From assembly GCA_902780175.1 (NCBI GenBank), contig CACZEU010000016.1, forward strand, positions 1 through 49,239: a stretch of DNA of 49,239 nt, in the 5' to 3' direction. A program made the position numbers and the translations under genes. The notes beneath the pieces were generated by a model. It did no database searches, had not been told where the DNA came from, and saw only the letters and a program-made list of their open reading frames with translations. Below, piece after piece: positions 12,996 to 28,318 of this stretch (positions within the stretch are counted from its first letter, which is position 1; each line of letters opens with the position of its first letter). The stretch comes from an uncultured Bacteroidia bacterium (lineage in GTDB: Bacteria; Bacteroidota; Bacteroidia; Bacteroidales; UBA932).

Positions 12996-13073
12996 GAAAC
13001 AGAAGAAACAGCTATGCCGCATGCAGTCCAAAGGCTGACAGAAAGTGGGACTTGCTCCCGGCAGACCGTGGCC

Positions 13074-13228
13074 GCGGCGGGCCGGCGAAAAAAGTGGGTA
13101 TTTCCTTCGGAAACCTTTGGTCGCCCATGACCATGAATGGGAGGGGCCCGCGCCGAAAGGCGTGGGAGGGGCGGAGCGTAGCGGAGGGTTTCCGGAGGGA
13201 ATACCCACTTTTTTCGGCGGCCCGCCGC
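13074..13228. repeat. Structured palindromic element, copy A
   Basis: Outer arms 13074-13115 and 13187-13228 pair over 42 bases with two T-G wobbles and one mismatch. Inside are hairpin I at 13124-13141 (CCCAT/ATGGG stem, loop GACCATGA) and hairpin II at 13147-13166 (CCCGCGCC/GGCGTGGG, GAAA loop). The core is nearly identical to copy B at 24731, but the arms are unrelated. It lies behind the lytic transglycosylase gene, 35 bases from its stop, and could act as a transcription barrier. Confidence 0.88.
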
Positions 13229-13263
13229 ATGAGAGGACGTGTCTTTGTCCCCGACCCAAAAAA

Positions 13264-14133
13264 TCAGGGTATAGCAATCTTATAAGTCTTCTGGTTCTTG
13301 TTGGTGAGGCGGACGTCGCGGAGCCAGAGATTAGCCCTCTTCAGGTCGGCGTAAGTAACTCCGTTCTCCAGAGCGAATTCAATCAGGTTGGGAATAGGAC
13401 CGGAGACCGTAACGGTCTTGCGTGGAGGGATATACGGATAGCGCTCGGTGACGTTGAAACCGAATGCCGCAGGATTCTCGAACAGCATCTTGGCGGCAAG
13501 GATACGATAGACATAACGCGTAGTCTCCTCCGGAAGCCAAAGGTCGAAAGAAGACCCCTGCTTCTGCTCGGCCACGCGGCGGACCATACCACCCATCCCG
13601 CAATTGTAACTCGCGGCCGCAGTAGGCCAATCCTTGAACAGCTTCCACGCACGAAGCAGAAACTCGCAAGCCGCAAGCGTCTCCTTCTCAACATTATAAC
13701 GCTCATCAACCTCAGTATCAACATCAAGCCCGAACTCCTTCGCCGTAGCCTTTGTGAACTGCCACAGCCCGGCCGCCCCCGAAACACTCACAGCAGAAGG
13801 ATCCAGATTGCTCTCGATGACACACAGATACTTAAGATCCTCCGGAATCCCCTTCTGCCGCAACACAGGCACTATCTGCGGAAAATACCTCCCAGACCTC
13901 TTGAGCATAAGCGTCGAAGTGGTATGCATATAGGTGAACGACATCAGCTCCCGGTCCATCCGCTCATACTTCTCAGTGGTATCGAACCGGATGGTATCCC
14001 CCGCAAACACCACATATTCAGGCACCGCCGGCGGAACCGGATGCATCACCCCGTTCTGCGGCTGATACATCCCCTGGGAAAACATGGAAATGCTTGCGGA
14101 CAGCGCCGCGATTATCAATAACAGCCTTTTCAT
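13264..14133 (-). CDS. Exported lytic transglycosylase (MltD/SLT-like)
   Basis: A 289-residue peptidoglycan lyase with a signal peptide (MKRLLLIIAALSASISMFSQ). The SLT domain spans about residues 90-230: LCVIESNLDPSAVSVSGAAG holds the catalytic Glu followed by the GAAGLWQF core, with ASYNCGMGG and the WLPEETTRYVYRILAAK closing segment. The last 50 residues (TVSGPIPNLIEFALENGVTY) look like a degenerate LysM-type module. Its ATG overlaps the mnmA stop (ATGA), making it the last gene of the DUF4290-ftsK operon. Confidence 0.85.
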   Translation of the reverse strand: MKRLLLIIAALSASISMFSQGMYQPQNGVMHPVPPAVPEYVVFAGDTIRFDTTEKYERMDRELMSFTYMHTTSTLMLKRSGRYFPQIVPVLRQKGIPEDLKYLCVIESNLDPSAVSVSGAAGLWQFTKATAKEFGLDVDTEVDERYNVEKETLAACEFLLRAWKLFKDWPTAAASYNCGMGGMVRRVAEQKQGSSFDLWLPEETTRYVYRILAAKMLFENPAAFGFNVTERYPYIPPRKTVTVSGPIPNLIEFALENGVTYADLKRANLWLRDVRLTNKNQKTYKIAIP

Positions 14134-15428
14134 ATCACTCCACTTCCCAAAAGTTCAGGAGCATCCCACTTGTCAGCAGGATCCTGCAGCGCGTAAAAAG
14201 CCGCGAACTGCCCCGGGGTGATGCTCCGCTGCGGTTTGTCGAAAACAACGAACAGGCCGGCAGGGCGCATCAGCAACAAAGCGTCCTGAAGGTCCTGGCG
14301 ATAACGTATCCGCACCCTGCAACGCATCTGCGCACCGTAATCCATAGCAAGCGAAGGGCGCATCCAATGAACCTCGTCCGGAGCCACACGAAGCACGCTG
14401 CGGAAAAGCCCCCTGTGATCCTCCCCCTCACCCACGTACACGCGGTTGGCCGCAACGTCCGTGGCAATCACAAACAGCGGACGGGCATGCCCGCCAATCG
14501 CAAGCCCCTTCCGCTGGCCCACGGTATAGAACTGGGCGCCCTCGTGCCTTCCGGCCACGACCGCCCAGGGATTAGGCTTGTTGCGGGTCTTCCGTACATG
14601 ATGTTTGCCGGAACGATAAGTTTCCGTCTCGAAAACTATATTGCTGTAGTCAAGCGGCCTGGACAGCGCCGTCAGCTCTTCGTCAGTCAACTCCCCGGGA
14701 CGCCTGGAAGCCAGAAGGTCCAGCCGCATGCGGTAGTCGGCCGAATCGGAATACCACTGATCGAAAACCTCCACCACATCGCCCTCCACGCTCTGCAGCT
14801 TCTGCTGAAGGAACACCGGCAGATCCACCTTGCCCACGAAGCAGATACCCTGCGAATCCTTCTTGTCGGCGGACGGCAGGTCGGCCTCGGCAGCCAGTGC
14901 ACGCACCTCGCTCTTGAGCATCCCGCCGATGGGAAACATCGCACGGGCCAGCTGATCCTGGGACAGACGGCAGAGGAAATAACTCTGGTCCTTGCCAGGG
15001 TCGATACCCTCCAGGAGCCTCCAGGAGCCGTCCGGAGCCTGATCCTTGCGGCAATAATGCCCGGTGGCGACACAGTCGGCACCCAACGCTCGGGCCTTCT
15101 CCAGAAAGGCATCGAACTTGATCTCGCTGTTGCAGAGGACGTCGGGATTGGGGGTGCGTCCGCGGGCGTATTCATCGAACATATAATCCACCACCCGCTG
15201 ACGGTACTCGGCGGACAGGTCCACGAAATAGAACGGAATGCCGATCTTGCGGGCTACCATTTCCGCCACGAACTTGTCCTCCTCCCACTCGCAGTCGCCG
15301 TGGAGCGTGCCCTCGGTGTCGTGCCAGTTCTGCATGAACATGGCAAAAACATCGTAGCCCTGCCGCTTGAGCAACAGGGCCGCAACGCTGGAATCGACTC
15401 CGCCAGAAAGACCGACGCAGACCTTCAT
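14130..15428 (-). CDS. mnmA: tRNA-uridine 2-sulfurtransferase MnmA
   Basis: This 432-residue enzyme thiolates U34 of tRNA-Lys, -Glu and -Gln. The ATP pyrophosphatase loop GLSGGVDSS lies at residues 7-15; the two catalytic cysteines are in VLCNSEIKFD (about 98) and QGICFVG (about 192). It is about 70 residues longer than the E. coli protein, mainly from an insert after the second cysteine (about 205-275) and a longer tail, as in other Bacteroidetes MnmA proteins as far as I recall. Its ATG overlaps the lolA stop and its stop overlaps the transglycosylase start. Confidence 0.93.
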   Translation of the reverse strand: MKVCVGLSGGVDSSVAALLLKRQGYDVFAMFMQNWHDTEGTLHGDCEWEEDKFVAEMVARKIGIPFYFVDLSAEYRQRVVDYMFDEYARGRTPNPDVLCNSEIKFDAFLEKARALGADCVATGHYCRKDQAPDGSWRLLEGIDPGKDQSYFLCRLSQDQLARAMFPIGGMLKSEVRALAAEADLPSADKKDSQGICFVGKVDLPVFLQQKLQSVEGDVVEVFDQWYSDSADYRMRLDLLASRRPGELTDEELTALSRPLDYSNIVFETETYRSGKHHVRKTRNKPNPWAVVAGRHEGAQFYTVGQRKGLAIGGHARPLFVIATDVAANRVYVGEGEDHRGLFRSVLRVAPDEVHWMRPSLAMDYGAQMRCRVRIRYRQDLQDALLLMRPAGLFVVFDKPQRSITPGQFAAFYALQDPADKWDAPELLGSGVI

Positions 15429-15937
15429 CGCAGGTCGGTGATTACCCAGTCATCCCCGAGCGCGGAAACGTCGAAGAAGAACTCGGCGGTGCCTCCGGTG
15501 AGGGGAGAACTCTTGATGGAAGTGAGCTTGAAGGCCACCGCAGCGCCCTGGCTGGGCTCCTTATACACGCCGGTAACCTGCTTCTCGGAAACCTTGAGGC
15601 CCTCCACCCTGTCCAGATGCGCGGTAGGATCGACCATGAACTCGCGGGTGCCGGTGGAAGACTCGATATAGACCTCCTTAGCCTCGGAATCGACGGTCCA
15701 CTTGGTGGTGCCGTCGCACCAGATGTCGGCGCCCTTGGTGCTCATGTGGTAGCAGGGGCCGTCGAGCACGACGGTGCCGCCGGTGGCAATCTGCGGCCTG
15801 TCCTTGGCGGAAAGGGTGTATTTGAAACTCACGCGGTTGCTGTCCACCAGGGCCTTGAGGCCGGCGGCGTCACTCTGTGCCGCAAGCGGAAGGGTGGCGG
15901 CAAGCGCAAGCAGAAAAGTAAGCAGTCGTTTCATCAT
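15425..15937 (-). CDS. lolA: LolA-like outer-membrane lipoprotein carrier protein
   Basis: A 170-residue periplasmic protein with a signal peptide ending near LPLAAQ. The rest is a beta-rich fold with the LolA-like features VSFKYTLSA, YHMSTKGADIWCDGTTKW and DDWVITDLR, in place of the LolA barrel that shuttles lipoproteins from LolCDE to the outer membrane. The position behind ftsK is common in Bacteroidetes. Two consecutive ATG codons are possible starts (15937 and 15934); the first overlaps the ftsK stop. Confidence 0.72.
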   Translation of the reverse strand: MMKRLLTFLLALAATLPLAAQSDAAGLKALVDSNRVSFKYTLSAKDRPQIATGGTVVLDGPCYHMSTKGADIWCDGTTKWTVDSEAKEVYIESSTGTREFMVDPTAHLDRVEGLKVSEKQVTGVYKEPSQGAAVAFKLTSIKSSPLTGGTAEFFFDVSALGDDWVITDLR

Positions 15938-18330
15938 TTTGCAAGTGTGTCCAAAAGGTTCTGGAGGCTCATAAGGTCCGCCACGAGGACCTGACGGGGC
16001 TTTGCGCCCTCCTGGGGTCCTACGACGCCGGCCGTCTCGAGCTGGCCCATTACCCTTGCAGCCTTTGCAAACCCCATACCGAGACGTGTCTGGAGATAGG
16101 AAGTGGACGCCTTCTGCGTGGTGACCACGAGCTCGGCGGCCTCACGGAAGCGCTCGTCGAGGTCGCCGACTTCGCCGCCTCCGCCGCCTCCGCCCTCGCT
16201 ACCGGCCTCTTCGACCTCAGGCAGATAGTATGGAGTATTGTAGCTCTTGGCGTAACCCTGCTGCGAGCTGATGAATTCGTTGATCGAGTCGATCTCCTCG
16301 GAGCTGACGTAGCCGCACTGGATGCGCTCGGAGTCGATTCCAGCGCTGAACAGCATGTCGCCGCGGCCGATGAGCTTCTCTGCGCCGGGGGCGTCGAGGA
16401 TGGTCATGGAATCCACCCTGGAGGCCACCCGGAAGGCGATCCGCATAGGGAAATTGCTCTTGATGAGGCCGGAGATGACATCGACGGACGGGCGCTGCGT
16501 GGCAAGGATGACGTGGATGCCGGCGGCACGGCCCTTCTGCGCGAGGCGGATGATGGAGCCGGTGATGCTGCGGCCGGCAGCCTTGGCCTCGGGACCGCCG
16601 CCGCTGGTCATCGTGAGGTCTGCGTACTCATCGACAACCACTACCAGGTAAGGCAGGAAGCGGTGGCCCTGGTCGGACCGGAGGTGATGCTTGCAGTACT
16701 TGTCGTTGTAGGCGGTGACCTTGTTGACGCCGGCCTTGGACAGGAGCTCGTAGCGGTCGTCCATCTCTATGCAGACGGAACGGAGTATCTTCTCGGCGTC
16801 CTTGGGCTTCTTGACGATGGCGGTGGACAGCTCGTCCTCTTCGTCGGCGGCGTCGGGGAGGACGGCCAGATAATGGTGCAGCAGCTGCGCGTAGGCGGAG
16901 AATTCGACCATCTTGGGGTCGATGAAGACGAACTTGAGCTCCGAGGGGTGCCTGCTGTATAGGAGCGAACTGACTATGACGTTAAGGCCCACCGACTTGC
17001 CCTGCTTGGTGGCACCTGCGATGAGGAGATGCGGGGCGTCGGCCAGATCGAAGACCTTGACGTTCTGCGTGATGGTGTAGCCGATGGCGACGGGGAGTTC
17101 CGCCTTGCTCTGGCGGAAGGCGTCGTCGTTCAGGAGGGCCTTGAGGGGCACAATGGAGGCGTAGTCGTTGGCCACCTCGATGCCTACCGAATCCTCCAGC
17201 GTGACGACACGCACGCCCTTGGCCTTGAGGGACATGGCAATGTCTTCCTGGAGGCGCTTGATGTCGGATATCTTGACGCCCGGGGCGGGATAGACCTTGT
17301 ACAGGGTGACGGTGGGGCCGACAATGGCGCGGACATCGTTGACCTGGATCTTGTAATTCGCAAGGGCGGCGCGTATGCGGTTGCGGTTACGCACCAGCTC
17401 TTCCGTGGAGACCTCGTGACGGCCGGAATCGTGGTTCTGGAGCAGCTCGAGGCTGGGGAACTTGAACTTGGGAAGGCCGTCGGGCGGGTCCATCCTGTTG
17501 TCGATGGGCTTGAGTTCCTTGGTGACTGTGGTGTCGAGGCCTTCACCGCGCTGGACGTCCATAGGGTCGTCGGGGTCGCCCTCGGGGGATTGTGCCTCCG
17601 GGGTGACGGGAGCCTTGACAGGGGCTTTGACAGGCGCCTTGACCGGCTCTGCGGGAGGATTGGTCCTCGCAGGCTCAGGCCGCACCTCGGGCTGGCTGAC
17701 GGCAGGGCTGACGACGGGGGCAGGTTCGACCGGACCGTCATTGCCGTCGCCGGGCTGCTTCCTGCCGGACTTCCACAGGCCGGCGAGCCATTCGTTGAAC
17801 GGAGGAACGGCTATGAAAAGCCATATGACGATGAGCAGGAGGATGACGATGGCGGTAACGATGTGGCCCATGATGCGGATGGACCACTCCACCACAGCGG
17901 CTCCGCAGGCGCCGCCCAGACCGCCGCCGAAGGCGGTGCCGAGGCCGGCGACGCTGCCGGCGAATGCCAGCAGGAGCGAAGACACGAAGGCCCCGCTGAG
18001 GGTAAGCAGGAGGGTGCGTCCGGGGGACATGATCCATTTGCCCACAAGCAGCCTGACGGACAGGACCACCAGGATGATAAGAAGGGCGAAGCTGCCCAGG
18101 CCGAGGAAATCACCCACCAGGAACTTGCCTGTGCGGTAGCCCAGGGTGCCGGCGGCATTGGCTACTTTCTCGCCGGGCTCGAAGCTCATGTCCTGCTGCC
18201 AGTGGGCGAGGTAGGAAACGGATGCAACGAGCACGAAGATGGCCAGCGCCGCCATGCACAGGCCGATTATCTTGACCGCCGCAGCCTTCTGGCTCGCGTC
18301 CCAGTTCTTTATGAAGGAGGGCGTTTTCAT
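15934..18330 (-). CDS. ftsK: DNA translocase FtsK
   Basis: A 798-residue septal DNA pump. Four membrane segments fall between residues 20 and 170, followed by a proline-rich linker with a three-fold APVK repeat (about 225-240) made of short DNA repeats. The motor domain has the Walker A motif GATKQGKS near 437, Walker B VVVVDEYADL near 560, and ATQRPSVDVISG. A glycine run (about 715-722) leads to the C-terminal gamma winged helix (about 735-798, YLQTRLGMGFAKAARVMGQL) that reads orienting sequences. It starts at the last base of the DUF4290 gene and its stop overlaps lolA. Confidence 0.95.
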   Translation of the reverse strand: MKTPSFIKNWDASQKAAAVKIIGLCMAALAIFVLVASVSYLAHWQQDMSFEPGEKVANAAGTLGYRTGKFLVGDFLGLGSFALLIILVVLSVRLLVGKWIMSPGRTLLLTLSGAFVSSLLLAFAGSVAGLGTAFGGGLGGACGAAVVEWSIRIMGHIVTAIVILLLIVIWLFIAVPPFNEWLAGLWKSGRKQPGDGNDGPVEPAPVVSPAVSQPEVRPEPARTNPPAEPVKAPVKAPVKAPVTPEAQSPEGDPDDPMDVQRGEGLDTTVTKELKPIDNRMDPPDGLPKFKFPSLELLQNHDSGRHEVSTEELVRNRNRIRAALANYKIQVNDVRAIVGPTVTLYKVYPAPGVKISDIKRLQEDIAMSLKAKGVRVVTLEDSVGIEVANDYASIVPLKALLNDDAFRQSKAELPVAIGYTITQNVKVFDLADAPHLLIAGATKQGKSVGLNVIVSSLLYSRHPSELKFVFIDPKMVEFSAYAQLLHHYLAVLPDAADEEDELSTAIVKKPKDAEKILRSVCIEMDDRYELLSKAGVNKVTAYNDKYCKHHLRSDQGHRFLPYLVVVVDEYADLTMTSGGGPEAKAAGRSITGSIIRLAQKGRAAGIHVILATQRPSVDVISGLIKSNFPMRIAFRVASRVDSMTILDAPGAEKLIGRGDMLFSAGIDSERIQCGYVSSEEIDSINEFISSQQGYAKSYNTPYYLPEVEEAGSEGGGGGGGEVGDLDERFREAAELVVTTQKASTSYLQTRLGMGFAKAARVMGQLETAGVVGPQEGAKPRQVLVADLMSLQNLLDTLAK

Positions 18331-18971
18331 TACTTTCTCTTACCCTTTTTGCGGAAACTGCGGTTCTTGCCCTGGCCGCCGACGTTGATGCTCATGCTCG
18401 GGCGGGAGAAGTTGCCGTCGAAGTTGATCTGGTGCAGGCGCAGGCCCTCGGGGACCGTCAGGCGGCCCTCGGAGAGCTTTTCAATGTCCTTGAAGATGGT
18501 TTCGTCGGAGACGCTGTCCTTGTTCCAGATGAGGTACTGCTGGCGCATGTAGATGGCAAGGGAGCGGATCATTTCCGTCTTGACCTCGCCGTCGGGCTCC
18601 TCGCAGAGGAGGTTGATGATCTTTTCGATGTTGCGGCCGTAGTGGGTGGCCTTGATCTTCTCGCCCTTCATGGGGATGGGGACGGGGCGGGTGTTGAATT
18701 CTTCCGCTACGGGTGCCGGGTAGGGGCTGTCGACGTCGAGGTCGAAGCCGGCGATCATATAGAGGTGGTCCCAGAGCTTGTGCTCGTAATTGTCGAGCTG
18801 GCGGACCTGGGGGTTGAGAAGTTCCATTACCTTCACTATGGCCCTTGCCTGCCCGGTACGTTTGTCCCTGTCGGGAATCTCCTTCATCTGCTCCACCATC
18901 TTGAGGACGTTGCGGCCGTATTCGGGCATCGAGAGCTTTTCACGCGTGGTGTTGTAGTCCATAATTATCAT
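18330..18971 (-). CDS. DUF4290 family protein
   Basis: A 213-residue cytoplasmic protein of unknown function that is conserved in Bacteroidetes. The N-terminal part MDYNTTREKLSMPEYGRNV and the tail rich in basic residues (FRKKGKRK) are characteristic. It is first in the ftsK-lolA-mnmA-transglycosylase operon. Both methionines of MIIM are possible starts; the second ATG lies at 18962. A full TTG-20-TACATTTG promoter stands 19 bases upstream. Confidence 0.82.
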   Translation of the reverse strand: MIIMDYNTTREKLSMPEYGRNVLKMVEQMKEIPDRDKRTGQARAIVKVMELLNPQVRQLDNYEHKLWDHLYMIAGFDLDVDSPYPAPVAEEFNTRPVPIPMKGEKIKATHYGRNIEKIINLLCEEPDGEVKTEMIRSLAIYMRQQYLIWNKDSVSDETIFKDIEKLSEGRLTVPEGLRLHQINFDGNFSRPSMSINVGGQGKNRSFRKKGKRK

Positions 18972-18989
18972 TTATATCGTGTCAAAAGG

Positions 18990-19020
18990 CAAATGTAACG
19001 AATTCTTGTTATCTTTGCAA
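18990..19020 (-). promoter_or_regulatory. Promoter of the DUF4290-ftsK operon
   Basis: On the minus strand TTG (19020-19018), a 20-base spacer and TACATTTG (18997-18990) match the Bacteroidetes consensus. Its -33 TTG lies right next to the -7 box of the divergent kinase cassette, so the two promoters overlap. Confidence 0.7.
19010..19017 (+). promoter_or_regulatory. -7 box of the HprK-S26-PqqD-ABC cassette
   Basis: TATCTTTG at 19010-19017 matches TAnnTTTG, 20 bases before the ATG at 19038. No good TTG lies 19-21 bases upstream, so this promoter is weaker on paper than the opposing one it overlaps. Confidence 0.55.
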
Positions 19021-19037
19021 GACAATCAACCCACCTT

Positions 19038-19922
19038 ATGACAAGATACTTCAAGGTCGCAGGACACATATTCTCCCTCATGATGACCGACAGCTGCTCC
19101 CTCTGGCCGCGGCTCACGCAATACGACCCGTTCATCACCGATGAACAGTCCCCCGTGCTGTTCGGGCTGGAACTCTGCCAGGATATGCTGGAGCGCCCGG
19201 AGGGCCTGGAATGCGTCTATGACCCCCAGACCGAGGACGGCGAAACGGTAGTCCGCCTGTACAAGGGCCGGGACTGCTGGGTGTTCGACATGTCCCCGGA
19301 CCACAATATCGAGTGCCGCGCGCACCTGGTGGCGAGCGCCGATTTCTCCTCCGGCCGCCTGTACCTCGACAACCGCAAGGTCAGCGACGCCATCTTCGGC
19401 ATCAACAATTCCATGATGCTCCTGTACGCGTTCCGTTCGGCCCCGCTGGGTACCCTGGAACTGCACGCATCGATGGTCAGCAACTCCGGCAAGGCGTACC
19501 TGTTCCTCGCCCGCAGCGGCACTGGCAAGAGCACCCACAGCCAGCTCTGGCTCGACCATATACCCGGCAGCGAACTCATGAACGACGACAACCCCATCGT
19601 CCGCGTATGGGAGGATGGATCTGTCATCGCCTACGGTTCCCCCTGGAGCGGCAAGACGCCGTGCTACCGCAACGTACAGGCACCCGTGGGCGCATTCGTC
19701 CGCATCAGGCGTTGCCCCGACAACCGCATCACCGCCCTCAGCCTGCTGGAATCGTACGCTCTGCTGTACTCGTCCTGCTCGGGCTTCAAGGCCGACCATA
19801 ACATCGCCGACGGACTCCACGCCACCCTTGAAAAGATAGTCACCACCACCCCCTGCTACGTCCTTGACTGCCGTCCCGACGAAGAGGCGGCCAGGGTTTG
19901 TTCCTCGGAGGTCCTCAAATGA
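19038..19922 (+). CDS. HPr-kinase-like protein (HprK C-terminal fold), first gene of a peptide-tailoring-like cassette
   Basis: A 294-residue protein with a P-loop ARSGTGKSTHSQLW at about residues 157-170 and the following NDDNPIVRV segment where HprK proteins carry their catalytic Asp; GSPWSGKTPCY follows. It lacks the N-terminal regulatory domain of true HPr kinase, as do the HprK-like kinases that phosphorylate lasso peptides. There is no membrane segment. Its stop overlaps the protease start (ATGA), and the next genes encode a PqqD-like protein and an exporter. The role as modifier of a ribosomal peptide is inferred from these partners; other Bacteroidetes contexts are possible. Confidence 0.75.
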   Translation: MTRYFKVAGHIFSLMMTDSCSLWPRLTQYDPFITDEQSPVLFGLELCQDMLERPEGLECVYDPQTEDGETVVRLYKGRDCWVFDMSPDHNIECRAHLVASADFSSGRLYLDNRKVSDAIFGINNSMMLLYAFRSAPLGTLELHASMVSNSGKAYLFLARSGTGKSTHSQLWLDHIPGSELMNDDNPIVRVWEDGSVIAYGSPWSGKTPCYRNVQAPVGAFVRIRRCPDNRITALSLLESYALLYSSCSGFKADHNIADGLHATLEKIVTTTPCYVLDCRPDEEAARVCSSEVLK

Positions 19923-20377
19923 AAACGGGCAAGATAGTCCTGCCCAACGCCATCATGCTCGGCCAGGTGTCGGAATTCCTGGGCGAGGGCCATTCCGTGG
20001 TCATAATGACGAAGGGGCAGAGCATGTCGCCCTTCATCCGCGGCGAGCGCGACAGCGTGGAACTGCTGCGCCGGCCGTCCGTAGAGGTGGGAGACATAGT
20101 CCTGGCCCAGATTTCCCCGGGGCACTACGTCCTCCACCGCGTCAATGCGATAAAGGAAGACAAGGTACGGCTCAAGGGCGACGGCAACCTCGACGGCACC
20201 GAGGCCTGCACCATGCAGGACATCTGCGGCACGGCAGTTGCCATACTGAAGCCCGGCGACAGGCGCATCGACTGCTTCGCCCCCCGCTGGAAGCGCCGTT
20301 TCCGCCGCTGGGTGGCCGCTCCGCGCATCGTAAGAAGAATAGTATTAGGATTTTATAGAAGAATAAAGTTTTTATGA
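19919..20377 (+). CDS. S24/S26-type serine peptidase of the Ser-His (SipW/Sec11-like) kind, without membrane anchor
   Basis: A 152-residue protein. GQSMSPFIRGERD (about 39-51) carries the catalytic Ser of the signal-peptidase SMxP box; VLHRVNAI (about 70) and LKGDGNLDGTE (about 83) follow the boxes of Ser-His signal peptidases rather than the Ser-Lys bacterial type. Unlike signal peptidase I there is no N-terminal membrane segment, only a basic, weakly hydrophobic C-terminus, so it may act in the cytosol or at the inner face of the membrane. Start at 19919 chosen for the ATGA overlap with the kinase gene. Leader removal from an exported peptide is a plausible but unproven role. Confidence 0.75.
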   Translation: MKTGKIVLPNAIMLGQVSEFLGEGHSVVIMTKGQSMSPFIRGERDSVELLRRPSVEVGDIVLAQISPGHYVLHRVNAIKEDKVRLKGDGNLDGTEACTMQDICGTAVAILKPGDRRIDCFAPRWKRRFRRWVAAPRIVRRIVLGFYRRIKFL

Positions 20378-20643
20378 AAACAGTTCCCGGATTCACCCTC
20401 CGTCCCCTCGGGAAGGAGTTCATCATTACAGCAGAAAGCATCAAGCAGATCAACTTCAACCGCATGATCTCCCTCAACGAGAGTGCGGCCTACCTCTGGA
20501 AGGAGGTAAACGGCAAGGACTTCAACGCCGAAGACCTTGCAAAGCTGCTGGAAGACCGCTACGAGGTTGACCACGAAACCGCACTCCGCGATTCCGAGGC
20601 CATCATCGCCAAATGGATCGAGGCCGGAATAGTCACCGAATGA
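20374..20643 (+). CDS. PqqD-like peptide-recognition protein
   Basis: An 89-residue winged-helix protein of the PqqD family. RMISLNESAAYLWKEVNG (about 29-46) is the typical PqqD core, followed by the DLAKLLEDRYEVDHETALRD helix pair. PqqD domains (RRE) bind leader peptides of ribosomally made, modified peptides and hand them to tailoring enzymes. It overlaps both neighbours by ATGA. In this cassette it would deliver a substrate to the kinase and protease. No precursor gene is visible nearby. Confidence 0.85.
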   Translation: MKTVPGFTLRPLGKEFIITAESIKQINFNRMISLNESAAYLWKEVNGKDFNAEDLAKLLEDRYEVDHETALRDSEAIIAKWIEAGIVTE

Positions 20644-22274
20644 GACCCTTCCGCGAGTGCTTCACGGGGCTGTGGCGGATGTTCCGCCCGCAGCGCTTCC
20701 GCGTGCTGGTCAGCGTGCTGGTCGGCACTGCCGGCGTGGCGGCGTCCCTGGCATTCGTATGGATAAGCAAGAAGGTGGTCGATGTGGCCACCGGAGCCGC
20801 CGCAGGAGACGTAAGCACCTTTGCGGCGTTAATGATAGGGATAATGGTCATCCAGGTCCTCCTGCGCGTCGGCGCACGCTACTGGGAGGGCTACATCGTC
20901 GTCCGCACGCAGAATTTCCTGCGGGAGCAGGTGTTCCGCAAGGTGATGCTGAGCACCTGGAACGGCAAGGACCGCTTCCACAGCGGCGACACCGTCAGCC
21001 GCCTGGAGGAAGACATACGCGTGGTGGTTGACTTCATCTGCGTCACGCTGCCCGACACCCTGTGTACGGTCATCCAGCTCATCGCGGCATCGGTGTACAT
21101 ATTCATCCTGTCACCGGGCCTCGCTTGGATATTGCTGATAATCATGCCCGTGGCGGTGCTGTTCAGCCGCCTGTTCTTCCGCAGGCTGCGTGCCCTCACA
21201 GGGGAAATCCGCGCCGCCGACGCCGCCGTGCAGGGACATATCCAGGAGAACACCCAGAGGCGTGTGCTGGTACGCATGCTCGGCGCCACCGGGAGCGTCC
21301 TGGAAAAGCTCGGAGGCCTCCAGGAAACGGTTTACGGCAAGACCATCACCCGCCTCAACTACAACGCCATAAGCCGCGGGTTCATGCAGCTGGGATTCGC
21401 CGCTGGATACGCTCTGGTGTTCCTCTGGGGCGTGTTCGGGCTCAAGGACGGTTCGCTGGGATACGGTACGATGGTGGCGTTCCTGCAGCTCGTCGGCCAG
21501 GTACAGAGGCCGGTGGCCAACATAGCCCTGCAGGTGCCGGCGTTCATCCGTGCGCTGTCTTCCGAAGACCGCCTGCTCGACCTCGTCAACGCCGTGCAGG
21601 AAGAGGAAGGATCTGATATCGTCCTCGACGGCGCTCCCGGAGTGCGTGTCGAGAAGCTTACCTTCACCTACGAGGGAATACACAAGTCGGTGGTCCGTTC
21701 GCTCGATTACGACTTCAAGCCCGGCAGCATGACTGCCATCATCGGCTCCACCGGCGCAGGAAAATCCACCCTGGTGAGGGTTATAATGGCCCTGCTCAAG
21801 CCCGACAGCGGCAGCGTCACTCTGTACGACGGCACGCATGAAGTGCCCTCCGGAGTGCGTACACGCTGCAATTTCATGTATGTTCCGCAGGGCAACAGCC
21901 TCATGAGCGGCAGCATACGAGAGAACCTGATGCTCGCCAAGCCCGACGCCACGGAGGACGAACTCCGTGAGGCCCTGCACCTCGCAGCTGCGGATTTCGT
22001 CTATGATCTGGAAAACGGTCTCGATACCGTCTGTGCCGAAATAGGCGCCGGCCTGAGCGAAGGCCAGGCGCAGCGCATCGCAATCGCACGCGCCCTGCTT
22101 CGTCCCGGCGGCATCCTCGTCCTCGACGAGGCCACCTCCGCCCTCGACGCCGACACCGAACTGGAACTCCTCGAGCGCCTCGGCGCCCGCTACCGCGGCA
22201 CCAAAACCATCCTCTGCATCACTCACCGCCCCGCCGCCACCTCCTACGCCGACGGCGTTCTCAAACTTGGCTGA
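20640..22274 (+). CDS. ABC exporter, fused permease and ATPase
   Basis: A 544-residue half-transporter. About residues 15-310 form the six-helix exporter domain; the ATPase domain follows with Walker A GSTGAGKST (about 367), Q-loop MYVPQGNSL, a slightly unusual signature LSEGQAQR (normally LSGGQ), Walker B ILVLDEATSALD and the H-loop CITHRP. It has no N-terminal C39 peptidase, so cleavage would fall to the separate S26-like protein. The ATG at 20640 overlaps the PqqD stop. Probably exports the product of the cassette as a homodimer. Confidence 0.88.
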   Translation: MRPFRECFTGLWRMFRPQRFRVLVSVLVGTAGVAASLAFVWISKKVVDVATGAAAGDVSTFAALMIGIMVIQVLLRVGARYWEGYIVVRTQNFLREQVFRKVMLSTWNGKDRFHSGDTVSRLEEDIRVVVDFICVTLPDTLCTVIQLIAASVYIFILSPGLAWILLIIMPVAVLFSRLFFRRLRALTGEIRAADAAVQGHIQENTQRRVLVRMLGATGSVLEKLGGLQETVYGKTITRLNYNAISRGFMQLGFAAGYALVFLWGVFGLKDGSLGYGTMVAFLQLVGQVQRPVANIALQVPAFIRALSSEDRLLDLVNAVQEEEGSDIVLDGAPGVRVEKLTFTYEGIHKSVVRSLDYDFKPGSMTAIIGSTGAGKSTLVRVIMALLKPDSGSVTLYDGTHEVPSGVRTRCNFMYVPQGNSLMSGSIRENLMLAKPDATEDELREALHLAAADFVYDLENGLDTVCAEIGAGLSEGQAQRIAIARALLRPGGILVLDEATSALDADTELELLERLGARYRGTKTILCITHRPAATSYADGVLKLG

Positions 22275-22305
22275 CAGCTGTTTGCCGTGGACGGTAGCTC
22301 CACTC

Positions 22306-22401
22306 GGCGATGCAGTTGAAAAAGCAGGGCACCTCCCGTTCATGGTCACGGGCGACCAAAGGTTTCAGGAGGGTAAGCCCTGCTTTTTCAACTGCATCGC
22401 C
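22306..22401. repeat. Structured palindromic element, copy C (inverted, short core)
   Basis: Arms 22306-22330 and 22377-22401 are perfect 25-base complements. The core on the minus strand repeats hairpin I of copies A and B, CCCGT/ACGGG around the same loop GACCATGA (22335-22352), and the flanking AACCTTTGGTCG. Hairpin II is absent. It lies 31 bases behind the ABC exporter stop and may end its transcription. No gene is seen from 22402 to 22570. Confidence 0.8.
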
Positions 22402-22573
22402 CAAGCCCAAGGTCAACAATTATTCTGAAATAGATTATTTATCAGTTTTAAATAATCGCAATAATCATTTGCGATTTTTTTAAAATCCATTGAGTCCTCA
22501 GCTATTCTGTTAATATTTGCTAACTGATAAAAAACGTAAACGACCATGAAAGACAGAGGATAGTCCCAAAAAG

Positions 22574-22640
22574 AAAAAAGCGATAGACGAAACTATATAA
22601 GCAGGAATACATCCACTAAGGCTTCTTCGTCTATCGCTGC
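22574..22640 (-). ncRNA. Candidate small RNA with its own promoter and terminator
   Basis: On the minus strand a promoter (22643-22672) is followed at once by GCGATAGACGAA (22637-22626), about 34 bases, its exact complement TTCGTCTATCGC (22591-22580) and six Ts (22579-22574). Transcription would give a roughly 65-nt RNA closed by a 12-bp stem and ending like an intrinsic terminator. No gene follows on this strand before the convergent exporter gene. No match to a known RNA family is recognised. Confidence 0.5.
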
Positions 22641-22642
22641 TG

Positions 22643-22672
22643 CAAATTTAGTTATTAAAACCGGATTTGCAA
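22643..22672 (-). promoter_or_regulatory. Promoter of the candidate small RNA
   Basis: The minus strand reads TTG (22672-22670), 19 bases, TAAATTTG (22650-22643), a full match to the Bacteroidetes consensus. The predicted start lies at the foot of the inverted repeat. Confidence 0.65.
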
Positions 22673-22772
22673 CCAGAAATCTCAAATCAGACACTTGCGG
22701 ATTCCTTCACGATTCCAACTAACAATCCGTATCTTTAATAATTCGATAAAAAACCAACCTCGACCGCCCTAT

Positions 22773-24224
22773 ATGAAGGAACTGACGATACAAGACATAG
22801 ATACCATCCTCCGCCGCGATGAAAGCCGCATTCTGGAGGTCAAGAAGACCACCGGAGAGCTGAACGCCGGCATGCAGTCCGGTTGCGCTTTCCTCAATAC
22901 CGAGGGTGGCTGGCTCTTTTTCGGCATACATCCAACTACTTTGAAGATTCTTGGGCAGGATGTAGTTGACAAGACCAGGCAGGAAGTGGCGCATGAAATG
23001 ACCAAGTTCTCTCCGGCCATCGACCTCTACGCCCAATACATTGACGTGCCAGGCTGTCCAGGACAGAAGGTCATCGCCATCTGGTTCCCTGCACCGGTCG
23101 GCTATGCTGCACCCTACACCTACGACGGCCGTCCTTACTACAAAGTCGAAAATACCACCAAACTGATGCCGCGCGAGATGTTCGATGAGCGCATCCGCCT
23201 CAGCGACCCCAAGAAATTCAGTTGGGAACTTGCCCCGTGCAGGGAAGCCACACTGGATGACATCGACGAAAACACCCTAACGGCTGCCATCCGTGGCGGC
23301 ATCGCCAAAGGAAGGATTCCGGCAAGCGCCGCCGATGCCGTGACGCTCCCCGAACGCCTGAGTCCTTTCAAAGTCCTCCTGCCTGGTGATGCGCTCACCA
23401 ATGGAGCCATTGCCCTGTTCGGTAAAGACCCATACAAATTCTTCAATCATTGCCGTATCCGCCTGGCCCGATTCGAAGGAACCATCATGGACAAGTTCCG
23501 TGACCAGGCCGTCATCGACGCCAACCTCTTCCAGCAGCTCCAGGCCATCGAGGACTTCTGCCGCAAACACATGTTCATGTCCGGCGACCAGGACCAGTTC
23601 GACAGCAAGAACGTGTTGACGGTCCCGCTCAAGGTCGTTAGGGAAGCAACTCTCAACTTGCTGATTCACAGAACCTGGTGGTCCGAAGGAAGGACTCCCA
23701 GCGTGAGCATCTTTGATGACCGAGTAGAATTCATGAACCCCGGAGCATTTCCTCCCGGCACCACTCCGGCTGATTTCCGCCACCGTCCCCACTCCGTACT
23801 CGTCAATGAGTTCATCGCCAATGCATTATTCAAAGGCGGCAAGACCGAAGGCTGGGGCCGAGGAATTCTCGACATCTTCACCCTTTGTAAAGAAGCAGGC
23901 CTTCCCGAACCGGAGTATGACTTCGTTCCCAACTTCGTCTGCCTGACCATTCGCTTCAAGAATCCGCTTACGCCTTTTTTAACAGATCAAAGTAATAACT
24001 CGTCGAATGAACGATTAAATGAACGATTAAATGAGCGATTAAACCCGTCTTTGCTGGAAACACTGGCAGTTATCAGGGCATATCCTGGTATTCAGAGGAA
24101 AACTATCGTTGCCAAGACCGGAAAGGGTGATGCAACAATTGGACGCCATTTGGTTACCCTGGCAGAAAGAGACCTTATTGAGCACAGGGGATCCAAGAGA
24201 ACTGGCGGTTACTATGCGAAATGA
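22773..24224 (+). CDS. AlbA_2 (Schlafen-type) and GHKL-ATPase regulator with C-terminal winged helix
   Basis: A 483-residue protein of the ATP-dependent helicase-annotated COG2865-like group. Residues about 1-135 form the AlbA_2 domain (ESRILEVKKTTGELNAGMQ, FLNTEGGWLFFGI). A GHKL-type ATPase region follows at about 285-400 (VPLKVVREATLNLLIHR, GGKTEGWGRGILDIF), then a short linker with three NERL repeats encoded by a 12-bp tandem repeat at about 24004-24040, and a winged helix at about 430-483 (YPGIQRKTIVAKTGKGDATI). Start at MKELTIQD chosen as the usual N-terminus. Probably a DNA-binding regulator in a mobile patch; its stop overlaps a short toxin-like frame. Confidence 0.78.
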   Translation: MKELTIQDIDTILRRDESRILEVKKTTGELNAGMQSGCAFLNTEGGWLFFGIHPTTLKILGQDVVDKTRQEVAHEMTKFSPAIDLYAQYIDVPGCPGQKVIAIWFPAPVGYAAPYTYDGRPYYKVENTTKLMPREMFDERIRLSDPKKFSWELAPCREATLDDIDENTLTAAIRGGIAKGRIPASAADAVTLPERLSPFKVLLPGDALTNGAIALFGKDPYKFFNHCRIRLARFEGTIMDKFRDQAVIDANLFQQLQAIEDFCRKHMFMSGDQDQFDSKNVLTVPLKVVREATLNLLIHRTWWSEGRTPSVSIFDDRVEFMNPGAFPPGTTPADFRHRPHSVLVNEFIANALFKGGKTEGWGRGILDIFTLCKEAGLPEPEYDFVPNFVCLTIRFKNPLTPFLTDQSNNSSNERLNERLNERLNPSLLETLAVIRAYPGIQRKTIVAKTGKGDATIGRHLVTLAERDLIEHRGSKRTGGYYAK

Positions 24225-24343
24225 CCGTTGATAACCGTTCTTTTGTGAAACGAATAATTGCGTACAAGGATGACTATAAAGCCTTCTTTGAATCACTTTC
24301 ACAAGACGAGAAGGATATGTTGGTGCTTATACCTTCGCTATGA
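24221..24343 (+). pseudogene. HigB/RelE-like toxin remnant, 40 codons
   Basis: The frame runs from an ATG overlapping the AlbA stop (ATGA at 24221) to a TGA overlapping the antitoxin ATG (24340). Residues 9-30, KRIIAYKDDYKAFFESLSQ and on, resemble the N-terminus of Bacteroidetes HigB toxins, which normally continue for about 80 more residues. Here the text changes to LIPSL and stops. An internal deletion that left the overlaps intact would explain this. A GTG at 24245 is an alternative start. Confidence 0.5.
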
Positions 24344-24645
24344 AGAAAAGAAACGATAAACAATTCTACGATGTGACTGCCCATCTGGTCGAGAGATTCG
24401 GACCGGTAGGGTCAGATGCATGGAAGGCCGAAGAGGCCAGGGCGTGGGAGGAGTATAATGCTGATATACTGAGAAATGCGCGTAAGGAAGCAGGTATCAC
24501 CCAATCCGAGCTGGCTCAGCGCATAGGTGCAGACAAAGCATATATCTCCAAAGTTGAACACGGGCGCACAGTACCAACGGTTTCTTCTTTCTATCGCATA
24601 GTTTCAGCCCTTGGAATGCAAGTCGTAATAACAAAGCAACCATAA
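24340..24645 (+). CDS. higA: HigA-type XRE antitoxin, apparently without its toxin
   Basis: A 101-residue protein with a helix-turn-helix at about 45-98: ILRNARKEAGITQSELAQRI, DKAYISKVEHGRTVPTVSSF. The N-terminal 40 residues are charged, as in HigA proteins encoded behind HigB. The upstream gene is only a 40-codon remnant, so the antitoxin appears orphaned and may persist as a repressor or as an anti-addiction factor. Start overlaps the remnant stop. A TACCTTCG sequence at 24330-24337 resembles a -7 box but sits only two bases from the ATG. Confidence 0.75.
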   Translation: MKKRNDKQFYDVTAHLVERFGPVGSDAWKAEEARAWEEYNADILRNARKEAGITQSELAQRIGADKAYISKVEHGRTVPTVSSFYRIVSALGMQVVITKQP

Positions 24646-24730
24646 CAGCCATTGGAAAGCCCACCGGATGCCGTCTGCCGGGGACGGTGGCGAAAAAGGA
24701 GCAGGAAGAATGTACGAAAAACCGTGGGCC

Positions 24731-24887
24731 GCGTGGGGCCTGCTGAAAAAGTACGGTACTACCTCAGAAAACCTTTGGTCGCCCATGACCATGAATGGGA
24801 GGGGCCCGCGCCGCAAGGCGTGGGAGGGACGGAGCGTAGCGGAGGGTTTTCTGAGGTAGTACCGTACTTTTTCAGCAGGCTCCACGC
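24731..24887. repeat. Structured palindromic element, copy B
   Basis: Arms 24731-24773 and 24845-24887 pair over 43 bases with a single G-T wobble. Hairpin I (24782-24799, CCCAT/ATGGG, loop GACCATGA) and hairpin II (24805-24824, CCCGCGCC/GGCGTGGG, loop GCAA) match copy A except for the tetraloop. It fills the gap between convergent higA and the FAD-oxidoreductase gene and is well placed to act as a two-way terminator. The arms share no sequence with those of copies A and C beyond the innermost bases. Confidence 0.88.
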
Positions 24888-24905: not shown

Positions 24906-26441
24906 CTACCGCTCCCTGCTGACAGCCTCGGCGCAGCGGATGCCGTCGATGGCGCTGGAGACTATGCCGCCGGAGTAGCCGGCGCCTTCTCCGCAGGGGT
25001 ATACACCGGCAATGGATACGTACTGCAAGGTCTCCGGATCGCGGGGGATACGTACTGGTGATGATGTACGAGACTCCACTCCGAGTAACAACGCCGCATT
25101 GGTGAAATACCCCTTCATACGCACGCGGGGGAACACTTTCTGCAGGCGGGAGGCAACCATAGGCGGCAGCAGTTCATGCAGAGGCGCACTTATCACCCCA
25201 GGGAAATACGACGTGGGCGGCATCTTCTTGCTCACCCTCCCGAGGCAGAAATCCTCCATACGCTGTGCAGGAGCGGCCATGGGGTTCTGCGGAATGTCCT
25301 TCGCTCCGCTGCAGCGCTCCCGTTCGCACCAGTCGAACATAGCGCGCTCGACGTCCCTCTGAAAATCCATCAGGCGGAAAGGATCGTCTCCCGGCACGTC
25401 TTCCGGCTCAATCTGCACCACCACCCCGGCATTGGCGAACTTCCCGCTGCGGCCGGAGTTGGACATACCGTTGAGCACGACCGTACCCGGTTCCGTGGAA
25501 GACGGCACCAGGATGCCACCGGGGCACATGCAGAAGGAGAACACTCCCCTGCCGTCCACCTGCTCCACGAAGGAATATTCCGCGGCAGGCACGCCCGGTT
25601 TCCACGTCCCGTGATATTGATGATAGTTTATCTTCTCCTGAGGATGCTCCACCCGAACGCCAAGAGCGAAGCCCTTGGCCTCGAGCGCACCGCCGCCGGA
25701 TGCCAGCATCTCGTAAACGTCGCGCGCCGAATGCCCGGTGGCGAGGATTACCGCCTTGCCGCTATATGCGCTGCCGTCGGCGCACTCCACGCTGCAGAGG
25801 CCATCCTCTCCTGCGCCCGAAACGGCCACTACGCGCGCCCCGAAGTGATATTCGCCCCCGTGCTCAACTATGCACTTGCGGATATTCTCCACCACCGTCG
25901 GCAACTTGTCGGAGCCGATATGCGGATGGGCGTCGACGAGGATGTCCTTCGAGGCCCCGAGTTCCACCAGGCGGTACAGCACCTCGCGGATGTCTCCCCT
26001 CTTGGAGGAACGCGTATAGAGCTTGCCGTCGGAAAAAGCGCCGGCGCCGCCCTCGCCGAAGCAGTAGTTCGATTCCGGATTCACAATGCCCTCACGGGAC
26101 AGCCGCGCCATATCGACCTTGCGGGCATGGACGTCCTTGCCGCGCTCCAGCACTATCGGGCGCAGTCCGAGTTCGAGCAGCTTGATCGCCGCGAACATCC
26201 CGGCGGGCCCGGCTCCGACGACCAGTACGGCAGGCGCACCGTGCACATCCTGAAGCGGAGCCAGTTCGAAGGGAACGTACTCCCCCGGGGCGTAGGCTTC
26301 ATACTGATAGCGCCAGACGGGCTCCTTGCGGGCGTCGACCGAACGCTTCTTCAGCACCCACTGCATACCGCCCGCGCGGGCTTCGATTTCCTTGAGACGC
26401 GGCTCGCGCGTCAACGGACAGCAGATCTCGAATTCTTTCAT
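24906..26441 (-). CDS. FAD-dependent oxidoreductase (COG2509-like)
   Basis: A 511-residue flavoprotein with the dinucleotide-binding motif VLVVGAGPAGMFAAIKLLEL (about residues 73-92) and the family-typical NYCFGEGGAGAFSDGKLYTR, HIGSDKLP and YPCGEGAGYSGGIVSSAIDG segments. The N-terminal 65 residues form the small RNA-binding-like domain often seen in this group. Substrate unknown. The frame is open further upstream, but the ATG at 26441 overlaps the helicase stop (ATGA) and gives the natural N-terminus MKEFEICCPL. Last gene of the addBA transcript. Confidence 0.85.
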   Translation of the reverse strand: MKEFEICCPLTREPRLKEIEARAGGMQWVLKKRSVDARKEPVWRYQYEAYAPGEYVPFELAPLQDVHGAPAVLVVGAGPAGMFAAIKLLELGLRPIVLERGKDVHARKVDMARLSREGIVNPESNYCFGEGGAGAFSDGKLYTRSSKRGDIREVLYRLVELGASKDILVDAHPHIGSDKLPTVVENIRKCIVEHGGEYHFGARVVAVSGAGEDGLCSVECADGSAYSGKAVILATGHSARDVYEMLASGGGALEAKGFALGVRVEHPQEKINYHQYHGTWKPGVPAAEYSFVEQVDGRGVFSFCMCPGGILVPSSTEPGTVVLNGMSNSGRSGKFANAGVVVQIEPEDVPGDDPFRLMDFQRDVERAMFDWCERERCSGAKDIPQNPMAAPAQRMEDFCLGRVSKKMPPTSYFPGVISAPLHELLPPMVASRLQKVFPRVRMKGYFTNAALLLGVESRTSSPVRIPRDPETLQYVSIAGVYPCGEGAGYSGGIVSSAIDGIRCAEAVSRER

Positions 26442-28318
26442 ACCTGAACAACTTTGTCTTCCGGTACGTACCATACGAAGCCGCAGACGTCGCTGCAGCC
26501 CATATCCCGGTACAGCTTGACGTAACGCCGCACCTGCCACAGGTACGACTCCCGCTCGGCACCGAATTTATAATCAATGACGACAATGCCGCCGCCTGCC
26601 GTATGCACCACGCGGTCGGGCCTCCAGCGGGAACCGTCGGCACCGAACACGGTAAGCTCGTTGCGCGCACCGGGGCAGGAGAACCATTCGGGATGGGCGG
26701 AAATACGCTCCCGCAGCAGGTCATAGTCCGCCGGATTGATGTCCCGGGGCAGATCCTCGGCGGTATCAACCGCAGAAAGTATCTTGTGGAGCTCGATGCC
26801 GCGAAGACGTCCGGACGCAGCGGAGCCGGTCTGACCGTCGTCCCCGAAGTAATCGGAAGCGTCCTGGGAGGCCTCCAGGCGGCCGCCGAGCGGGATGGAA
26901 TTCCATCGGGCCTGAAGAGGCTCGCCGGCTGTACGTTCCTTGCGGGCCATCTGCCCGAAGTCGTACGGAGTCCCGAAGACATATTCGTCAAAACCGTTGC
27001 ACCATGAATAGAGCAATTCGGAGAAGTTGCTGTAAGCGACGGCCTTGCGGGCCTTGAGTGCCGGCTGTTTGCCCTTTGCGGGAGTCTTGGCTATGACGTG
27101 AAGGCTGGACGCGGCACGGGTGAGCGCGACGTAGAATATATTGAGGTTGTCCGCCACCTGCAAGCGGTATTCATCTTCGTAAGCGGATGCGAAAAGGGTA
27201 TGCTGGCAGCTGCCGCTGAGACAGACGGGATAGATACCGTCGGCGATGCCGGCGAGCGGGGTCCCGGCGGCGTCGAGCACGCACCAGCGGGTAGTGGGCT
27301 TGAACAGCGTCACCTTGTCAGCAAACGGGAAGATGACGTGCGGGAACTCCAGTCCCTTGGATTTGTGGACGGTCATGATGCGCACGGCGTCCGAATTCTC
27401 GGGGGAACCGATATAGCAATCCTCCTTCTCGTCCCAGCTGCGCAGGAAGGCACGCAGGTTGTTGCCGCCCGTCGTCACCCAGTCCTGGAGAATGTCCATG
27501 AAAGCGCCGACGTAGAGGGTCTCGGCGTCGAAGGTGGAAGGATCGTACTCACGCAGCCCGCGGAGCAGTTCCTCGCAGAAGTCCACGAGGGAGTGATAGC
27601 GGTCGGGAAAACGGACATTCATCTTGCCGGCAAGATAGCTGCCGACGGTATTGGACGGGTCGTCGTAGAACGTCAGCAGGGATACCAGGCGCCGTACGGT
27701 CACCGCACCCTTGAGGTCCAGGGTGTCGTCGGATATGACGGAAATGCCTTCAGAGATGAGGGCGTCGGCAAGGAGGGCGCCTTCGCTGTGGCCGCGTACC
27801 AGGATGGCGATGTCGCCAAGGTGGGCGCCGCGGGAGCGGACGTCCTTTATCGACTGGAGTACGGCCGATACCTGGTCGTCGGTGAAGGAACAGCGGACGC
27901 ATCCGCGCTGGGTTTCCGGGCTGCAGGCTGTCTGTCCGACGTTGGAATACATCTGCCCGAATCCCACGGCATCGGCAGCGAATTCGAAGAACTGACTGTT
28001 GAATTCAACGACGGCAGGGGCGCTGCGCCAATTGAATCCGGGATTCTCGACCTTCGCCGAGGGGAATTCACGCTGCACCTCGCTGTCAAGCAGCTTCCAG
28101 TCGGAATCGCGCCAGCGGTAGATGCTCTGCTTGACGTCGCCCACTATGAGGTTGTCGCCGGAAGCGTCGGCGTCGCGCAGAAGCGGCAGGAAGTTGTCCC
28201 ACTGGAGGTGGGATGTGTCCTGGAATTCATCAAGCAGGTAATGCGTATAGCGCGAACCGGTCTTCTCATATACGAACGGGGCGTCCGAACCGTCGATTAT
28301 ATCCGTAGAGCTGCTTGT
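26438..28318 (-). pseudogene. addA: AddA-like helicase-nuclease, C-terminal part (out of frame with the N-terminal part)
   Basis: From 28318 to the stop at 26438 the frame encodes the second half of a UvrD/RecB-type helicase: Walker B YLLDEFQDTSHLQW, motif III GDVKQSIYRWR, motif V MTVHKSKGLEFP, motif VI FYVALTRA, then a PD-(D/E)XK nuclease with RPDRV and VVIDYKFG. All these motifs are intact. The ATG-like start (GTG, 28144) lies inside the motif III text and is not a real start. The piece is +1 relative to the N-terminal part, and about 30 residues expected between the two, before the IIDGSDAPFVYEK segment, are missing. The protein can only be made if the deletion is an assembly error or frameshifting occurs. 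Confidence 0.8.

Follow-up and report, generated by a model that had tools for sequence, protein, structure and literature searches.

A probably mobile family of pseudoknot-bearing palindromes in a Bacteroidales genus, with in-frame copies in conserved genes

The best-known palindromes lying in frame within protein genes are those of Rickettsia: the Rickettsia palindromic elements (RPE) are about 150 bp long and occur between genes as well as within unrelated protein-coding genes (PMC10969869). Prokaryotic miniature inverted-repeat transposable elements (MITEs), such as ERIC/RU and Correia, are short and non-autonomous, carry inverted repeats and occupy intergenic and intragenic DNA (PMC10969869), RU elements being among those known from within genes (PMC2759123). 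Some of the palindromic GTAG/CGTC repetitive extragenic palindromes (REPs) are likewise intragenic; CGTC REPs have been reported in Bacteroidetes, and RAYTs are suspected of mobilising the GTAG REPs (PMC3733652). Here we describe a family of palindromes of which three copies, A, B and C, lie in a 49,239-nt stretch of DNA (the window) from an uncultured Bacteroidia bacterium of the order Bacteroidales (contig CACZEU010000016.1 of assembly GCA_902780175.1), and which we consider probably to be a family of non-autonomous mobile elements centred on one genus of that order. No prior description of it was found in the part of the open-licence literature that was searched.

The family would work like the RPE, in that 30 of 133 distinct elements sit in frame within conserved genes of 13 unrelated types, all in species other than the host of the window. 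Compared by description only, it appears structurally distinct: it belongs to another phylum, is read in both orientations and in more than one frame, and combines copy-specific arms with a covarying pseudoknot, a second hairpin and a GCGNAGC hairpin. We know of no RPE with copy-specific arms, a conserved pseudoknot, a second hairpin or a GCGNAGC hairpin; nor do we know of a mobiliser for the RPE, and how they move is, to our knowledge, still open. From GTAG/CGTC REPs the family differs in being several times longer (median 132 bp as against 20–40 bp) and in its variable stem; no common GTAG or CGTC-type tag was seen at the ends of the 133 elements, and the element does not lie beside Y1 transposase genes beyond background. 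In contrast to MITEs, no terminal inverted repeat is common to copies of different species (judged by eye), although one is shared among most copies in the host genome, and no clear target duplication is seen at the element ends.

In the 2.5-Mb host assembly the core pattern, at up to three mismatches, occurs at 19 places and a reversed control pattern at none; 13 of the 19 copies share the core exactly, two wildcard positions aside, and most also have the arm pattern GAGGCCGCTGAAAAAGTNGGGTAC...CTCCGGAAACC in common, judged by eye. By exact scanning, two named metagenome-assembled genomes (MAGs) of Bacteroidales from buffalo rumen were seen to hold four stretches between them, and at three mismatches the pattern turned up in 2 of 101 genomes of the genus and in 1 of 299 of the family, the host genome being counted in both. 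The covariance-model search of the genome and related Bacteroidales that had been suggested in the initial annotation uncovered the family at large: a model built on a 22-copy seed matched 326 of 400 sampled genus genomes (E≤0.01), with at least five matches in 185, one to four in 141 and none in 74, where at most ten candidates were scored per genome, the E-values are rough and some genomes with one to four matches rest on one weak match. One 95%-complete genome held six matches in 400 kb. Across the order 5 of 295 genomes matched at E≤0.001, the host included and one at 8.8e-4. Clear copies outside the genus were seen in G815, from another family of the order, and G105, from another genus of the same family (L218, L223, L219, L224); with 290 of the 295 order genomes lacking the element, these reflect either horizontal transfer or binning error. 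The suggestion that the palindromes are a mobile-looking family thus gains from the further copies, 19 in the host genome, and from their spread through the genus.

The 133 elements analysed comprise the 22 seed rows and a further 28 and 83 genus matches, a set that is biased to high model scores and contains some near-identical orthologs. Omitted from the seed were C (L007) and L014, both internally deleted, L009 (Ns), L019 (a large insert), L041, the contig-end copies L042, L044, L046 and L047, and L039, a repeat of L021; L050 and a cut-off second match in L059 were omitted from the 28. Two contigs of one genome (L042 and L046; G004 C39 and C40) end within one element, with matching half-stems, so assemblies can break at such palindromes, and the copy numbers counted in MAGs may be too low. 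In two places partial copies adjoin full ones: a truncated copy with an identical left arm precedes the full copy in L016, and in L017 the full element begins directly after the CATGAA of a truncated element, as if by self-insertion. No viral or phage carriage was detected with three exact patterns in viral contigs and one element compared with phages by BLAST, and no plasmid carriage by BLAST with another single element.

Whole palindromes are mostly 117–167 bp long (range 94–239, n = 133) and consist of a conserved core closed by a copy-specific stem of 14–83 bp (median 29). The core contains an H-type pseudoknot, with one purine between its first strands, followed by hairpin 2 and mostly by a mini-hairpin, GCGNAGC, a motif present in the core of 115 of the 133 elements when counted anywhere in it, mostly as hairpin 3. 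Stem 1 of the pseudoknot occurs as 30 sequence types and has at least four contiguous pairs in 129 of 132 parsed elements, the best stem-1 register having been chosen by the parse; with the register taken from stem 2 alone, 39 distinct stem-1 halves formed a mean of 4.6 pairs as against 2.6 in shuffled data (3.3 at most in 2000 shuffles), with 8 of 131 rows still misregistered through an early CC. Five complementary pair sets recur in stem 2 (n = 132): CCCGT/ACGGG in 59 elements, CCCAT/ATGGG in 37, CCCTC/GAGGG in 26, and CCCCC/GGGGG and CCCGC/GCGGG in 4 each, with 2 others. Across the 22 seeds the structure pairs in 98.9% of cells, and double changes number 61 as against 14.4 in shuffled data, the arms accounting for 50 of them, stem 2 for 7 and stem 1 for 4. 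The loops of hairpin 2 (n = 132) include CTTG (35), GNA (29) and GNNA (29). In DNA, GCGAAGC and loops of the GNA and GNNA kinds have unusual stability, and such loops are no less characteristic of DNA mini-hairpins than of RNA. Among three same-genome pairs compared at different loci, core identity was 96% (L055/L110), 91% (L074/L164) and 68% (L064/L161), and the near-identical cores of the first two fit, in part, with recent spread or core exchange.

The 30 genic copies, from a search confined to insertions that keep the frame, add 37–57 codons each. They lie in genes for CYTH proteins (L060, L067, L110, L164, L167), YgiQ-type radical SAM proteins (L055, L066, L140, L161), YggS-type proteins (L064, L074, L150, L151), TilS-type proteins (L075, L123, L184), UDP-glucose dehydrogenase (Ugd; L052, L057), SpoU methylases (L130, L175), APH-RapZ proteins (L139, L173), EamA proteins (L117, L166), SAM methyltransferases (L021, L122), the E2 component of 2-oxoacid dehydrogenase (L162), an MtaB-like protein (L058), an RsmE-like protein (L065) and an ABC protein (L182), names beyond the Pfam families being our own assignments. 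The Pfam scan covered 27 of the 30 proteins, with L057, L067 and L074 assigned by similarity; a 28th scanned frame, L172, gave no match and stands outside the count. A Pfam match spans the insert in the four YgiQ and three TilS-type proteins, L130 and L182, and falls into two stretches in L064 and L065; the insert separates domains of one protein in L052, L058, L139, L162 and L173. In the CYTH, EamA and methyltransferase proteins and in L150, L151 and L175 the match lies on one side only, the other side being judged from the likeness among copies. The core strand runs in reverse in 19 of the 30 and forward in 11; in those 19 it is the template strand, and the mRNA there carries the complement rather than the folded molecule. 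Reversed copies often encode GPSHS.GHGRP, and other frames and orientations occur too.

Empty sites are found in relatives. Ugd is present in 48 of 101 genomes, and among 30 loci fetched one is the L057 copy itself (L078) while the other 29 lack the element; in its native form the loop is of the YDEPALEESAHTF type, and the entire palindrome, with its two arms, is additional to this in L052 and L057. At an intergenic locus with a match in 44 of 150 genomes, five species have the element (L237–L241), which is missing from 21 further relatives whose loci were fetched. As the empty sites contain neither arm, the idea that the element entered palindromes already present, or copied its arms from the target on insertion, finds no support; at the CYTH and Ugd sites a small number of outer bases may belong to the native sequence. 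The Ugd loop of relatives L080, L081, L082, L088, L100, L101 and L103 holds several other short palindromic coding repeats, with peptides that include CHPERSEGSVS, MPDQVGHDGRSSLPAATGNL and VIPSEAKESI, making this loop a tolerated hot spot for repeats of different families.

Template switching between inverted repeats has arm homogenisation and spacer inversion as its published outcomes (PMC8604942, PMC8794818) and yields covarying arms, so that arm covariation alone is not evidence for RNA. Both outcomes appear at orthologous sites here, in keeping with quasipalindrome template-switch mutation (PMC8604942). In L171 and L183, which share a locus with flanks 83% alike, the outer arm has been altered identically on both sides, apparently including a length change, and the inner arm has kept two identical one-sided wobbles; L067 and L167 occupy the same CYTH site with homologous arms and an inverted core. 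Template switching is, however, a mutation process and not an element, and accounts for the arms but not for the conserved core or its spread. Mismatches in the arms, read on the core strand, are G.T in 98 cases and A.C in 25 (105 independent arms, neutral scoring), and outside the covariance-modelled region in 49 and 18 (p 2e-4); as mutation alone should give equal numbers, the fold of the core strand is or was selected. The initial annotation had proposed selection on an RNA fold; selection on a fold, be it of DNA or of RNA, is borne out by the covariation of the pseudoknot together with this bias.

The window itself holds three copies, all intergenic, and reading its sequence places them where they had been annotated. 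Element A (155 bp, 13074–13228, forward strand), delimited by sequence reading, arm alignment and folding, has 42-bp arms that contain an A-tract on the left (13074–13115) and a T-tract on the right (13187–13228); element B (157 bp, 24731–24887, forward strand) has 43-bp arms at 24731–24773 and 24845–24887. Element C (96 bp, 22306–22401, reverse strand) is an internally deleted copy without hairpins 2 and 3, with 25-bp arms that lie, in element orientation, at 22377–22401 on the left and 22306–22330 on the right. Arm alignment upholds the pairing described before, with three mismatches in A (one G.G and two T.G), one in B (G.T) and 25 of 25 positions paired in C. The shared loop, the change from CCCAT/ATGGG to CCCGT/ACGGG and the second hairpin are all present as well; the inner hairpin, though real, is only half of a pseudoknot (GGTC with GACC) that had been overlooked, as had the third hairpin, GCGTAGC. 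In A the pseudoknot (13118–13141) pairs TGGTC (13118–13122) with GACCA (13129–13133) and CCCAT (13124–13128) with ATGGG (13137–13141), and is followed by hairpin 2, CCCGCGCC-GAAA-GGCGTGGG (13147–13166), and hairpin 3 (13176–13182). In B the pseudoknot (24776–24799) pairs 24776–24780 with 24787–24791 and 24782–24786 with 24795–24799, and hairpin 2, with the loop GCAA, and hairpin 3, again GCGTAGC, occupy 24805–24824 and 24834–24840; the pseudoknot of C, with stem 2 CCCGT/ACGGG, is at 22335–22358 on the reverse strand. The fold of A has a predicted energy of −116.2 kcal/mol (z −11.9), a value that none of 200 shuffles reached. GNRA loops, claimed for A and B, are there, but family-wide GNNA describes the four-nucleotide G..A loops of hairpin 2, just 9 of 29 being GNRA. 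That the arms are unrelated between copies holds between species and among copies of another rumen MAG (L020, L022, L023) but not within the host genome, where A and B are alike.

As had been annotated, A and C sit behind genes and B lies between convergent ones. A is 35 bp from the 3' end of an SLT transglycosylase gene (13264–14133, reverse strand) and C lies 31 bp after an ABC transporter gene (20613–22274, forward strand), each element being antisense to the gene it follows; B is flanked by an AlbA_2/HATPase_c_4 gene 506 bp upstream (22695–24224, forward strand) and a gene for an FAD-dependent protein 18 bp away (24906–26540, reverse strand). The sequence ACCGTGG(G)CC or similar directly precedes several host-genome copies (13065–13073 and 24722–24730 in the window; L003, L010) and is perhaps a second repeat or part of a larger outer inverted repeat; in L010 pairing runs far past the core arms.

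If the family is indeed mobile, the inserting unit would be the whole palindrome, and its targets would be intergenic DNA together with tolerant loops and linkers of genes, where open frames would permit translation in either orientation and thereby some 37–57 extra residues. The core strand would fold while single-stranded, more likely as DNA than as RNA, and the fold would be recognised by an enzyme acting in trans, possibly a RAYT-like HUH (Y1) transposase of a kind common in the genus. Pairing of the stem despite sequence drift would be kept by template switching, which would copy arm onto arm and sometimes flip the core, and additionally by selection on the folded strand. It is tempting to go further and propose, tentatively, a new class of mobile element in which the pseudoknotted single strand is the transposition intermediate, read by a RAYT-like HUH enzyme of the genus at its core and not its ends, and which colonises coding sequence in the form of translated inserts in both orientations; with such an enzyme the arms would be free to drift by template switching.

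The RAYT-like gene is a lead as to the mobiliser. Y1 HUH proteins some 310 aa long, in which HxH and Y..NN are invariant, were found in 243 of the 400 genus genomes; they match the RAYT model NF047646 below threshold (E ~1e-10; 40 bits, where the cut-off is 80). The gene accompanies 149 of 185 genomes with at least five scored elements, 74 of 141 with one to four and 20 of 74 with none, and when the first hundred are restricted to the 47 genomes of at least 90% completeness, the same classes give 21 of 27, 6 of 12 and 0 of 8, whereas no trend is seen for the control gene Ugd across the whole of that hundred (23 of 48, 17 of 33 and 8 of 20; p 0.60). This profile of the ~310-aa type superseded a Y1_Tnp search whose association depended on the cut-off: 53 of 101 genomes matched at E≤1e-5, and at E≤1 all 12 element-rich genomes that had lacked the stricter match gained one, as against 6 of 12 element-free genomes. 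The host genome has a different Y1 protein, of 293 aa, flanked by GGACCTGTACGAGCA repeats (L277, G000 C129).

Several observations weigh against mobility of the palindromes or against this mobiliser. No transposition event was seen. No end sequence common to the copies was seen either, their arms being different, and the arm consensus, when tried as a transposon end, gave 15 matches, every one within copies of the element. Direct repeats at the ends are weak: repeats of 3 bp occur at 9 of 124 elements as against 2.9 expected (the highest of 300 shuffles being 8), those of 5 bp at 4 as against 0.5 with a sliding end, and other lengths gave nothing clear. Copies that appear to be vertically inherited still keep the structure, for which a dead transposon copy would have no need, and cores within one genome are not always alike (L064 and L161 of G573). 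The association with the RAYT-like gene was computed without correction for phylogeny, and at E≤1e-20 the gene is absent from the host genome and from the element-rich genomes G001, G013, G015 (98% complete) and G026. Around 16 Y1 loci the element gave no match, and 20 RAYT-like loci of about 4 kb each (80 kb) contained two likely matches and one weak one, near the density of six in 400 kb of one genome. RAYT-like genes, where read, are moreover often flanked by different hairpins of their own. Such simple hairpins, alike within a locus and different between loci, lie on both sides of the gene in L284, L285, L289 and L294, the clearest of 16 loci among the 20 fetched that yielded it, often with an AATCA-type motif nearby; genes so flanked have the look of autonomous IS200-type units.

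A non-coding or cis-regulatory RNA, whose transcribed core strand would form the pseudoknot and hairpins and act at each site, for instance in mRNA 3'-end processing or stability, would explain the covarying pseudoknot, the excess of G.T over A.C on the core strand and the retention of the element at one intergenic locus in five species. We nevertheless regard it as distinctly unlikely, as the element is not fixed in its orientation relative to transcription (of the genic copies 11 run forward and 19 in reverse, and A and C are antisense), sits in the coding frames of unrelated proteins, favours GNNA over GNRA tetraloops in hairpin 2, carries a recurrent GCGNAGC and has no Rfam match in the window at the gathering score. 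Ordinary RNA genes are an unlikely account of the family; when two elements were compared with known RNA families at E≤5, the matches were all below the gathering score and mostly to microRNA precursors.

It is also unlikely that the copies are passive fossils, their arms continually corrected by template switching and their cores conserved through youth alone, with no present selection on the fold. Concerted arm changes and core inversion are what template switching produces (PMC8604942, PMC8794818), and the near-identical cores at different loci in two of three same-genome pairs would suit such an origin, but the short halves of the pseudoknot covary by substitution across species, and symmetric correction does not predict the excess of G.T over A.C outside the modelled region (49:18). 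The terminator-like reading in the initial annotation, taken as ordinary bidirectional intrinsic terminators that share a core by chance, drew on the position of A, B and C behind genes and on the A/T tracts of the host-genome arms: a right-arm T run of at least five is present in 12 of 15 analysed host copies. Among the 118 remaining elements of the 133, however, only 9 have one, and 30 of the 133 lie inside genes; with a core that is exact in 13 of 19 host copies and matched in 326 of 400 genomes, a chance resemblance is ruled out for the family and so slight a probability remains for this account that we reject it, while termination by the host-genome arms is possible as a side effect.

What these palindromes, as probable mobile elements, may offer is an abundant family, conserved in structure, within a large genus of Bacteroidales. 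As it spans many species, has empty sites, has repeatedly struck the same loops of housekeeping proteins and comes with a candidate enzyme, its mobility and its effect on protein evolution are testable. It also carries a warning, that perfect covariation of a stem can arise from template switching on DNA, and provides a natural test bed for separating template switching from selection on a fold. The family may, finally, help to show how protein-coding palindromes spread.

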